DNA of 64,000 nt from Anabaena sp. FACHB-1237 (GTDB taxonomy: Bacteria; Cyanobacteriota; Cyanobacteriia; Cyanobacteriales; Nostocaceae): the NCBI RefSeq assembly GCF_014696225.1, contig NZ_JACJPV010000008.1, forward strand, positions 62,001-126,000, given 5' to 3'. Both the position numbers and the translations under genes were made by a program. Of the stretch, positions 25,186-29,261 are shown piece after piece (position 1 is the first letter of the stretch; every line of letters begins with the position of its first letter). The notes under the pieces are model-generated. The model saw only the letters and a program-made list of their open reading frames with translations, searched no databases and had not been told where the DNA came from.

Positions 25186-25506
25186 ATGATAAATACTATT
25201 GCTAGTAATAAATTAATCATAGAAGGATTTCATGCTTTATCTGATCCTATTAGAATCAAAGTCATAGAATTATTGCATCAACGAGAACTTTGTGTATGTG
25301 ACTTATGTGATGCTTTAGAAATAACTCAATCTAAATTATCATTTCATCTCAAAAATTTGAAATCAGCAAATTTAGTAAATGCTAGACAACAAGGAAAGTG
25401 GATTTATTATAGTTTGAATTTATCACAGGTACAAATATTAGAACAATATTTAGGTGATCTTCACCGTAATTCTATTATTTATCCTCCTCGTTCTTGTTGT
25501 GATTAA
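25186..25506 (+). CDS. arsR: Arsenic-responsive repressor ArsR
   Basis: A 106-residue winged-helix repressor of the ArsR/SmtB family. The DNA-binding helix begins with ELCVCDLCDALE. C36, C38 and C41 form the CVCDLC trivalent-arsenic site of classical ArsR. The recognition segment is ITQSKLSFHLKNLKSANLVN, and a Cys pair sits at the C-terminus (PRSCCD). I chose the ATG at 25186 because the putative promoter places the transcript start at about 25138. A TTG at 25141 would add 15 residues. It heads the arsenic island pstS-gapdh-arsJ. Confidence 0.9.
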   Translation: MINTIASNKLIIEGFHALSDPIRIKVIELLHQRELCVCDLCDALEITQSKLSFHLKNLKSANLVNARQQGKWIYYSLNLSQVQILEQYLGDLHRNSIIYPPRSCCD

Positions 25507-25518
25507 TTGTTTCATCCA

Positions 25519-25551
25519 AGATCCCCGACTTCTTAAAGAAGTCGGGGATCT
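25519..25551. terminator. 33-bp palindrome after arsR, possible terminator
   Basis: AGATCCCCGACTTCTT, then AAAGAAGTCGGGGATCT, a nearly perfect palindrome 12 bp after the arsR stop. It could separate the arsR transcript from pstS. It belongs to the same dispersed family as 13723-13755. Confidence 0.6.
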
Positions 25552-25558
25552 GAATATC

Positions 25559-25621
25559 TTAACTGAAAATTAATCTTGCGTTAATTTTGAGTTAATCTTT
25601 GTTTAATTTTTAGTTAAACAT
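25559..25621 (+). promoter_or_regulatory. Pho box with six 11-bp-phased repeats upstream of pstS
   Basis: Six octamers of the type TTAAYYTT begin at 25559, 25570, 25581, 25592, 25603 and 25614, exactly 11 bp apart. The sequences are TTAACTGA, TTAATCTT, TTAATTTT, TTAATCTT, TTAATTTT and TTAAACAT. Octamer direct repeats with 3-bp spacers are the established binding pattern of the cyanobacterial PhoB homologue (SphR). A -10-like TATTAA lies at about 25635-25640, suitably close. I infer activation of pstS-gapdh-arsJ under phosphate starvation. Confidence 0.8.
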
Positions 25622-25769
25622 CTCATAGCGGACTTATTAACTGATATTAATTAGCAATTTTCTTGATCAATTCCTGTCTATTATGCTATTGTAAATCTTG
25701 ACATATCAATTTTTCTTGAAATGATGAATACATCAAATTACACAAACATTAAATATACAGGTCAAACCA

Positions 25770-26828
25770 ATGAAAGCAACAGTAAACAAACTAGTCCTCA
25801 CAGTGACAATGTTAACATTGGCCACTAGTTGTAGTAATACACAAGAACCAATAAAAAAAATTCAGCCATCACAACCAGTAACAGAAATTACTAAATCTCC
25901 AAAATCAGTCGTAATTAAAATTGACGGTTCTAGTACGGTATATCCAATTACCAATGCTATAGCCAAAGAATTTGAAGGAGACTCTAAAAATAACGCTCAA
26001 ATTCAACTTAGCATTTCTGGTACTAGTGGAGGGTTTGAAAAATTCTGTGCTGGAGAAACAGATATTACTAATGCTTCTAGGCCAATTAACCAGTCAGAAA
26101 TGACAATTTGTAAAAAAAATGGCGTGGGATATATGGAATTACCCATAGCTTTTGATGCCTTAACTATTGCTGTTAACACCCAAAATAACTGGGCAAAGGA
26201 CATTACAGTAGAAGAATTAAAAACACTGTGGCAACCTGAATCTGAAAGAAAAATTACTAAATGGAATCAAGTACGCAGTTCTTGGCCAAACCGCCCCATT
26301 AAATTATACGGTGCGGGGGATAAGTCAGGGACATTTGACTACTTTACTGAAGCAATTGTTGGTAAAGCTAAAGCCAGTCGTAAAGATTATACAACCAGCG
26401 AAGATGATGAAGTCTTAGTTGCAGGTATCAATAAAGACCCAGATTCCTTGGGTTATTTTGGTTATGCTTATTACGAAGAAAATAAAGACAAGTTAAAAGT
26501 TTTAGCAGTGAATAACGGTAAAGGGGCTATTTTACCATCACGAGAAACCGTAGAAAAAGCCCAATATCAACCACTTTCTCGACCTTTATTTATCTATGTC
26601 AATGTTCGTTCTAGTAAAAATAAAAGTGTAGTTTACAAATTTGCAGATTTCTACATTAAAGCAGCCGCAAAAACGGCTATTTCTGTGGGTTATGTTCCTT
26701 TACCAGAGGAAATTTCTAAACTTAATTATGTCCATCTATACAATGGCAAAATAGGAACAGTATTTGCTGGTAAGTCACAATTTGACTTAACCATTGACGA
26801 ATTATTGCGTAAACAAAAACAATTTTAG
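25770..26828 (+). CDS. pstS: PstS-family phosphate-binding lipoprotein of the arsenic island
   Basis: A 352-residue periplasmic oxyanion-binding lipoprotein. The signal peptide ends in the lipobox LATSC. Ligand-binding segments are DGSSTVYPITNAIAKEF (residues about 52-68), SGTSGGFEKFCAGETDI and GDKSGTFDYF, all typical of PstS. No pstC, pstA or pstB is nearby. The gene lies 13 bp before gapdh, clearly one operon, and follows a six-repeat Pho box. It may feed the Pst importer or bind arsenate. Which anion it prefers cannot be seen from sequence. Confidence 0.88.
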   Translation: MKATVNKLVLTVTMLTLATSCSNTQEPIKKIQPSQPVTEITKSPKSVVIKIDGSSTVYPITNAIAKEFEGDSKNNAQIQLSISGTSGGFEKFCAGETDITNASRPINQSEMTICKKNGVGYMELPIAFDALTIAVNTQNNWAKDITVEELKTLWQPESERKITKWNQVRSSWPNRPIKLYGAGDKSGTFDYFTEAIVGKAKASRKDYTTSEDDEVLVAGINKDPDSLGYFGYAYYEENKDKLKVLAVNNGKGAILPSRETVEKAQYQPLSRPLFIYVNVRSSKNKSVVYKFADFYIKAAAKTAISVGYVPLPEEISKLNYVHLYNGKIGTVFAGKSQFDLTIDELLRKQKQF

Positions 26829-26841
26829 GGATGAGTAAATC

Positions 26842-27852
26842 ATGACAATTAGAGTAGGAATTAATGGTTTTGGACGCATGGGAAGATTAGCCGTTCGTGC
26901 GGCTTGGGATTGGTCAGAAATAGAATTTGTACATATCAATGAAGTTAAAGGTGGTACGGAAGCAGCAGCGCATTTACTAAAATTTGATTCCGTACATGGA
27001 CGGTGGGAAAAAGAAGTTACATCTACAGAAAATCAAATTTTTATTGATAGTAAATCTCTGACTTTTAGTGAATATTCCCAACCAGGAGCAGTCCCTTGGC
27101 AAAATTTTGATGTTGATATTGTCTTGGAATGTTCAGGAAAATTTAGAACTACTTCCACCCTTGATCCTTATTTTCAAAAAGGTGTGAAAAAAGTAATTGT
27201 TGCTGCACCAGTAAAAGAAGGTGCTTTAAATGTTGTGATGGGAGTAAATGATCATCTTTACGAACCTAATAAACATCATTTATTAACAGCAGCTTCCTGT
27301 ACTACTAACTGTTTAGCCCCAGTAGTCAAAGTAATTCATGAAGGGTTAGGAATTAAACATGGAATTATTACTACAATTCATGATAATACTAATACTCAAA
27401 CCATTGTAGATGCACCCCATAAAGATTTACGTCGTGCGCGAGCTACAAGTATGTCATTAATTCCCACTAGCACAGGTTCAGCTACAGCTATTGGTTTAAT
27501 TTATCCAGAATTAAATGGTAAATTAAATGGTTTAGCAGTGCGTGTACCATTGTTAAATGCTTCCTTAACTGATTGTGTTTTTGAAGTTGCACGTTCCACC
27601 ACAATAGCAGAAGTTAATGGTTTATTAAAAGCGGCTTCTACCCAAGAACCATTAAAAGGAATTTTAGCTTATGAAGAACGTCCTTTAGTTTCCATTGACT
27701 ATAAAGATGACCCCCATTCTGCAATTATTGATGCCCTTTCTACGATGGTTGTAGATGAAACTCAAGTGAAAATTTTGGCTTGGTATGATAATGAATGGGG
27801 TTATGCTAATCGCATGGCAGAATTAGCGCGAAAAGTAGCTTTAAGTCTCTAA
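26842..27852 (+). CDS. gap: ArsJ-associated glyceraldehyde-3-phosphate dehydrogenase
   Basis: A 336-residue GAPDH with NAD-binding [17 protein letters not shown] at the N-terminus and the catalytic cysteine C153 in [12 protein letters not shown]. The [12 protein letters not shown] end is typical. It stands between pstS (13 bp before) and arsJ (152 bp after). In the known ArsJ pathway this enzyme uses arsenate in place of phosphate to make unstable 1-arseno-3-phosphoglycerate. Housekeeping GAPDH genes of cyanobacteria lie elsewhere, so this copy is probably dedicated to arsenate. The inference depends on the neighbour. Confidence 0.92.
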
Positions 27853-28004: not shown

Positions 28005-29261
28005 ATGGTATCTACTTCTAGTGCAAATTTAAAAAATTACGCCTTAGTTACCCTAGCTTATTGGGGTTTTACTATTACTGATGGGGCATTAAGAATGCTG
28101 GTTTTATTGTATTTTAATAAAATTGGTTATACACCTTTACAAATCGCTTACTTGTTTCTTTTTTATGAAATTTTTGGTATTGTTACTAATTTTTTAGGCG
28201 GTTGGATAGGTTCACAATTTGGACTAAAATTAACTCTTTATAGTGGTCTGGGTTTACAGATTTTTTCTTTGGTAATTTTATCATTATTAAACCCTAATTG
28301 GCCACAGTTTATAGCAGTTTTTTATGTGATGGTAGCACAGGCATTATCTGGTATTGCTAAAGATTTAACTAAGATGAGTTCTAAAAGTGCCATCCGTTTA
28401 GTTGTTCCCCAAGATGCCCAGTCATCTTTGTTTAAATGGGTAGCAGTTTTAACAGGTTCTAAAAATGCCTTAAAAGGAGTTGGTTTTTTTGTTGGTAGTG
28501 CTATTTTATCTGTATTTGGATTTGTAAATGCTTTGTTAATAATGGCTGGCGGACTACTTTTAATTATGTTCACAGGATTATTATTACCTAAAGGAATGGG
28601 CAAAATTAAGCAGAAAGTTAAATTCAGTCAATTGTTTTCTAAAAGTCAGGAAATTAATATTTTATCGGCTGCAAGATTCTTTCTTTTTGGTTCACGAGAT
28701 GTATGGTTTGTTGTAGCTTTACCTGTGTTTTTACGTCAAACTTTAGGCTGGTCATTTTATCAAGTGGGAGGCTTTTTAGCTTGTTGGGTAATTGGCTATG
28801 GAATTGTGCAATTTTTAGCCCCTAATTTAATGCGGAAGTTTGGCTCTAATGATCCGCCAAAATCTAAAACTATTCAATTTTGGACATTTACTTTAACTAT
28901 TGTTCCTTGTGCGATCGCTCTTGCTTTACAACTTGGTTTACCTGCTAATATAGTTATCATCAGCGGACTACTTTTATTCGGTATTGTCTTCGCTTTTAAT
29001 TCTGCTGTTCATTCCTATTTAGTATTAGCATTTACTGACGATGATAAGGTAGCTTTAAATGTTGGTTTTTATTACATGGCTAACTCTGGAGGTCGTCTAG
29101 CAGGTACAGTATTATCTGGGTTAGTTTATCAGTTATTTGGTTTAGTCGCTTGTCTGTGGACATCCATGTTTTTTGTGTTAGCAGCAGCTTTAATTTCTTT
29201 AAAATTACCTAACCCTCAACCCACTAAAAATATTATTTGGAAAGCTGGAGACGGAGACTAA
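28005..29261 (+). CDS. arsJ: Organoarsenical efflux MFS permease ArsJ
   Basis: A 418-residue major facilitator protein with about 12 transmembrane helices. The N-terminus NYALVTLAYWGFTITDGALR and the loop AQALSGIAKDLTKMSSKSA are characteristic of ArsJ. ArsJ exports 1-arseno-3-phosphoglycerate, which then breaks down outside to arsenate, so the GAPDH-ArsJ pair gives arsenate resistance without reduction. A family C repeat fragment sits in the 152-bp gap before it. A strong hairpin follows the stop. Confidence 0.92.
   Translation: MVSTSSANLKNYALVTLAYWGFTITDGALRMLVLLYFNKIGYTPLQIAYLFLFYEIFGIVTNFLGGWIGSQFGLKLTLYSGLGLQIFSLVILSLLNPNWPQFIAVFYVMVAQALSGIAKDLTKMSSKSAIRLVVPQDAQSSLFKWVAVLTGSKNALKGVGFFVGSAILSVFGFVNALLIMAGGLLLIMFTGLLLPKGMGKIKQKVKFSQLFSKSQEINILSAARFFLFGSRDVWFVVALPVFLRQTLGWSFYQVGGFLACWVIGYGIVQFLAPNLMRKFGSNDPPKSKTIQFWTFTLTIVPCAIALALQLGLPANIVIISGLLLFGIVFAFNSAVHSYLVLAFTDDDKVALNVGFYYMANSGGRLAGTVLSGLVYQLFGLVACLWTSMFFVLAAALISLKLPNPQPTKNIIWKAGDGD

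Follow-up and report, generated by a model that had tools for sequence, protein, structure and literature searches.

A Pho-box-like six-unit TTAA array above an ArsR-type promoter at the pstS-gapdh-arsJ operon of Anabaena sp. FACHB-1237: a candidate for dual phosphate and arsenic control

Background

In Synechocystis, the Pho boxes of SphR (at sphX/pst1, pst2 and phoA; Suzuki 2004; Su 2007, PMC1906773) consist of direct 8-bp YTTAAYYW units joined by 3-bp linkers and stand before a pstS-type gene. The distance of published Pho boxes to the start codon ranges from 23 to 310 bp, and the Su 2007 set is mostly computational, with experimental support for the Synechocystis entries only (PMC1906773). 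As for arsenic genes, PMC4585019 cites Lopez-Maury 2003 for the ArsR footprint consensus ATCAA-N6-TTGAT at Synechocystis arsBHC, an operator that lies inside the promoter, and the same consensus is given in PMC9137774. Both kinds of control come together in Agrobacterium and Halomonas HAL1, where arsenic genes are under Pho and arsenic sensors and where, in these PhoB/ArsR-integrated genes, PhoB binds a Pho box at aioBA (PMC7533571, PMC4563254). Finally, Nodularia spumigena CCY9414 has the gene order arsR-sphX-gapdh-arsJ (PMC3610870, PMC9846622), and this orthologous operon shows a weak rise under phosphorus limitation, with log2 fold changes in the first two contrasts of 1.57 and 2.41 for gapdh, 0.75 and 1.21 for sphX, and 0.29 and 1.20 for arsJ, compared with about 7 log2 for a PhoX-like phosphatase gene (PMC9846622). 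The authors looked at the phosphorus genes of Nodularia and found them to have no Pho box or conserved P-box (PMC9846622).

Here we describe an array of six TTAA octamers ahead of the pstS-gapdh-arsJ operon of Anabaena sp. FACHB-1237, in a window of 64,000 nucleotides (the whole stretch of DNA that was analysed). The array has the unit type and linkers of the Synechocystis Pho boxes and likewise precedes a pstS-type gene, but it holds six units, where three are usually scored, and it fronts an arsenic operon. The likeness to Nodularia is one of gene order. Given that the meeting of Pho and arsenic control is known in Agrobacterium and Halomonas, what is new is that, in one cyanobacterial lineage, a pstS-gapdh-arsJ operon has a predicted SphR-type array over its ArsR promoter, whereas the proteobacterial cases concern arsenite oxidation and pst1/pho1 genes.

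Results and Discussion

Genes and repeats around the array

Family models bear out the gene calls of the original prediction, namely a PstS-family protein, an ArsJ-associated GAPDH and ArsJ (Table 1), and the neighbouring genes for the latter two are those of the ArsJ/GAPDH arsenate resistance pathway. The ELCVCDLC motif of the arsR product is presumably the As(III) site, as in E. coli ArsR. The array starts 52 bp past the arsR stop codon and 149 bp ahead of the pstS start; the second distance had been given correctly, while the description of the array as far from arsR was mistaken and holds only for the arsR promoter. The palindromic repeat that abuts the array has at least 78 further copies in the genome among the matches listed, as well as many in relatives, and is common across Nostocales; it may mark off the pstS operon from arsR.

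Table 1. Features between arsR and arsJ (positions within the window)
Feature	Position	Strand	Basis or remark
arsR, ArsR/SmtB-family metalloregulator with ELCVCDLC	25186..25506	+	Pfam HTH_5 5e-17, NCBIfam HTH_metalloreg; alternative start at upstream TTG 25141
Dispersed palindromic repeat GATCCCCGACTTCTT-n-AAGAAGTCGGGGATC	25517..25557	.	abuts array; inverted repeat at 25519-25551, perfect over 16 bp
Six Pho-box-like octamers, YTTAAYYW type, exact 11-bp phase	25558..25620	+	top match in window with two independent motif models; octamers in order CTTAACTG, ATTAATCT, GTTAATTT, GTTAATCT, TTTAATTT, GTTAAACA
Candidate -10 TATTAA for an SphR-dependent start; weak, tentative	25635..25640	+	sequence
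Distal ArsR operator O1 (AGCAATTTTCTTGAT), decayed	25653..25667	+	aligns with perfect ATCAA-N6-TTGAT of relatives
Ancestral operon promoter, TTGACA (25698-25703), 17-bp spacer, ATGATG (25721-25726)	25698..25726	+	conserved TTGACA-17-ATGATA/G in relatives
Proximal ArsR operator O2 (ATCAATTTTTCTTGAA), ATCAA-N6-TTGAA, fills promoter spacer	25705..25720	+	one mismatch to consensus
pstS/sphX-type phosphate-binding protein	25770..26828	+	TIGR02136, 289 bits, above cut-off
ArsJ-associated glyceraldehyde-3-phosphate dehydrogenase	26842..27852	+	NF033735, 572 bits, above cut-off
arsJ, organoarsenical efflux MFS permease	28005..29261	+	NF033734, 589 bits, above cut-off

The array is not a simple tandem repeat

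All six TTAA cores of the original prediction were found in place, at 25559, 25570, 25581, 25592, 25603 and 25614, with a step of exactly 11 bp. This is the sole run of six TTAA in phase in the genome (4.65 Mb searched), and only 2e-5 such runs per genome would be expected by chance under a second-order Markov model of the window, which rules out a chance origin. When five units with one mismatch were accepted, only four sites remained genome-wide; two of them are tandem repeats with largely identical units, and the other two are the array itself and the canonical pstSCAB promoter.

It is conceivable, if unlikely in our judgement, that slippage or the adjacent palindromic repeat gave rise to the array as an AT-rich direct repeat of no function, and that ArsR alone controls the operon, as in relatives. 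Such an origin would fit with an array present in one genome only and directly adjoining a dispersed repeat, in a genome whose other TTAA arrays are simple tandem repeats off promoters, and with the similarity of units 2-5 outside TTAA, which show a 22-bp sub-period. However, none of the six units has a change in TTAA and the spacers vary, with mismatches in 0/24 core positions against 18/42 in the seven spacer columns (p = 9e-5, a value that is inflated because the array was picked for its TTAA), and therefore the array is not a simple tandem repeat; the other long TTAA runs of the genome (C4:84949 and C78:21008) have, in contrast, mostly identical units. Other copies of the palindromic repeat also come without the array, their matches stopping at the palindrome, and the array faces pstS; only on the coding strand do its orientation and flanking YYW agree with the Pho consensus.

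Match to cyanobacterial Pho boxes

A Pho-box array is expected to have three or more direct 8-bp units of YTTAAYYW type, joined by 3-bp linkers, and to lie upstream of a phosphate-acquisition gene to which it points; the array has six such units and stands ahead of pstS in this orientation. For scoring, motif 1 was built from the published cyanobacterial set of Su 2007 (PMC1906773), without its CCMP1375 entry and without those for sphX-gap3 in PCC 7120 and ATCC 29413. Five units of the array score 32.2 on the + strand versus 20.0 on the - strand, the highest value in the window and above the 28.1 of the genome's own pstSCAB array; the maxima of twelve simulated 64-kb sequences were 6.5-16.4. 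Triples of units within the array score 18.5-19.8, the best of them being mid-range among the published triples (8.7-24.4). Three-unit scoring was rejected as a genome-wide detector for its lack of specificity, the best triple (24.2, contig C45) being some 700 bp ahead of a DUF2231-cox2-type cluster. Motif 1 gave no strong Pho-box site upstream of the genome's own phoX.

The motif-model search proposed along with the original prediction also came out in its favour with motif 2, a model from 31 canonical Nostocaceae pst promoters, by which the array is the top site of the window (19.0 vs 6.1 for the next unrelated site), close to the weakest left-out pst promoters (17.7-21.1). The array part alone scores 19.4, under every pst promoter (24-54), and the part that follows it -0.4, compared with -6 to 17.5 across the pst promoters; the hexamer at the expected Pho-dependent -10 is weak, and the TATTAA at 25635 sits farther past the last unit than the pst-type -10 distance. 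Since a pure tandem repeat between convergent genes reaches 21.8, motif 2 alone is not decisive for a Pho array.

The SphR, SphS and PhoU genes are grouped on contig C16 of the genome. The response regulator of this locus (L194) is best matched by the PhoB model, with 250 bits, under the proteobacterial-type cut-off of 296; a histidine kinase gene adjoins it and PhoU scores above its cut-off. Direct repeats of about 11 bp are common as sites of OmpR/PhoB-family regulators, and since the genome has many regulators of this type, the array could be bound by a different one that answers to another signal, e.g. light or redox. We regard this as improbable, given that the octamers match published Pho boxes and that like arrays precede the canonical pst operon of both this genome and its relatives. 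Less probable still is a UP-like action, in which phased bending or easy melting of the AT-rich element would raise basal transcription without a specific activator: although the region is very AT-rich and near helical phase, the exact 11-bp step drifts from 10.5 bp over five steps, the A-tracts are broken by TTAA steps, and the sequence matches a known motif. A site for SphR is thus the reading that we prefer.

Comparison with the pst promoters of Nostocaceae

The original prediction had taken three or so repeats as usual for cyanobacterial Pho boxes, a figure that is too low for Nostocaceae. Their canonical pst promoters (L242-L271; 31 loci modelled) hold about five conserved TTAA units in the same 11-bp register and orientation as the array, ending about 68 bp before the ATG, and the genome's own pstSCAB promoter has a five-unit array with four units of exact TTAA. 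A perfect six-unit run occurs in 6/193 Nostocaceae genomes; in the other five it stands 66 bp ahead of a canonical pstS-pstC (one genome), ahead of a polyketide-synthase-like gene (one) or in simple-repeat-like sequence (three). Six copies are not exceptional, then, because Nostocaceae pst promoters hold about five and one relative six: the array is long but within the known kind. The six-unit array at the polyketide-synthase-like gene (L241, G209:C94, 274-332) has CTTAACCT units and lies about 50 bp before that gene. In regards to placement, the FACHB-1237 array differs from the pst arrays, reaching from about -211 to -150 relative to the start codon rather than from about -117 to -66, and it is followed by a weak block and ArsR operators where the pst arrays are followed by a conserved block.

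ArsR-type operators in the operon promoter

In the relatives, two ATCAA-N6-TTGAT/A sites are conserved upstream of pstS at a distance of about 53 bp from each other, and TTGACA-17-ATGATA encloses the proximal site. Most relatives have both copies, whereas in FACHB-1237 the distal copy has decayed and the Pho-box-like array appears to have been added upstream; the proximal copy lies inside the promoter, like the same operator at Synechocystis arsBHC (PMC4585019). Among 60 cyanobacterial arsJ operons, 36 have an ArsR-type operator within 400 bp upstream, against about 1.4 expected from the density of 0.023 per 400 bp in the remainder of these loci. With an operator that overlaps the promoter and an arsR with a cysteine motif nearby, the arrangement is that of an ArsR-repressed promoter, and its conservation indicates that the ArsR-type operator is the ancestral control of the pstS-gapdh-arsJ operon. 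The original prediction overlooked this operator. Its placing of a Pho box ahead of pstS-gapdh-arsJ is supported by the motif match, the orientation, the similar array at the genome's own pstSCAB and the presence of SphR, SphS and PhoU. It is incomplete in that the promoter also holds the ArsR-type operator, and the poor -10, the absence of the array from 22 relatives with this operon and the weak phosphorus response of the orthologous Nodularia operon speak against it.

Similar operators are found within published Pho-box predictions. The Pho box given for alr1094 of Anabaena PCC 7120, CTTTACTAataCATCAACTtttATTGATGA, contains an exact ATCAA-N6-TTGAT, and the exact ArsR operators ATCAACTTTTATTGAT and ATCAACTTTTTTTGAT lie inside the alr1094 and Ava_3716 (ATCC 29413) entries (PMC1906773, Table 1). 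Because both hold the exact consensus, the predictions at these two sphX operons are probably miscalled ArsR operators. A literature search on alr1094-1097 returned nothing beyond the Su 2007 prediction.

Distribution among relatives

The array is absent from 22/22 relatives with pstS-gap-arsJ, none of which has more than two TTAA in phase, and a Pho box ancestral to the arsJ operon is thereby ruled out. The alignment to the nearest relatives begins at the distal ArsR site, and all sequence upstream of it, including the array, is not common to them; two Nodularia-related loci have the ArsR sites and lack the array. The array is known from one genome, in a comparison that covered a single genome of its genus, and as it occurs in no relative there is no conservation to prove selection. 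Judging by their upstream sequences, the relatives appear to control the arsenate-detoxification operon with the arsenic sensor only.

Shorter arrays were seen at other arsJ operons. Five Pseudanabaena gap-arsJ operons have a three-unit CTTAATCA-TTTAAA-CTTAACCT array at the gap start, 41 to 12 bp before the gene, with motif scores of 21.5-23.4; this is downstream of a TTGACA promoter, and an activator is not expected there. In Dulcicalothrix PCC 7102 and Calothrix PCC 7103, four TTAA in 11-bp phase lie 54 to 10 bp before gap, adjoining its start codon below three ArsR-type operators, with pstS divergent; here an arsJ operon may have acquired a TTAA array independently.

Proposed mechanism

We propose, with a probability of roughly 0.6, that the array is an SphR (PhoB-type) site which this lineage acquired ahead of a pstS-gapdh-arsJ promoter that was inherited and is repressed by ArsR, and that the operon would thereby be under dual control. 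From the sequence we infer the binding of SphR, the direction and size of the phosphate response and the way in which both controls combine. Under phosphate starvation, phosphorylated SphR would occupy the tandem octamers and increase transcription toward pstS. Without arsenic, ArsR on O2 would still repress the TTGACA promoter and might also be a partial block to transcripts from upstream starts, until released by arsenite. The products of the operon would then be the phosphate-binding protein, a GAPDH forming 1-arseno-3-phosphoglycerate and ArsJ exporting this compound, with an output expected to be strongest at low phosphate with arsenate leaking in through Pst. If the SphR-dependent start is near 25645-25660, transcripts would have to cross the two ArsR sites, where bound ArsR could be a roadblock; alternatively, the array could act at a distance on the TTGACA promoter, and the weak -10 does not decide between the two.

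A bolder version, about which we are rather doubtful, is that the promoter computes "low phosphate and arsenic present", phosphorylated SphR starting transcription upstream of and through the ArsR operators so that full arsJ expression would need both signals. On this view the wiring arose recently in a single lineage, and TTAA arrays may have been acquired separately at other arsJ operons (Calothrix-type, Pseudanabaena).

Conclusions

Arsenate enters through phosphate transporters, so that phosphate-starved bloom cyanobacteria are the most exposed. Phosphate hunger may also turn on arsenic defence in this filamentous cyanobacterium, and a joint SphR and ArsR promoter, if true, would illustrate how arsenic defence can become tied to the very nutrient state that causes the exposure.
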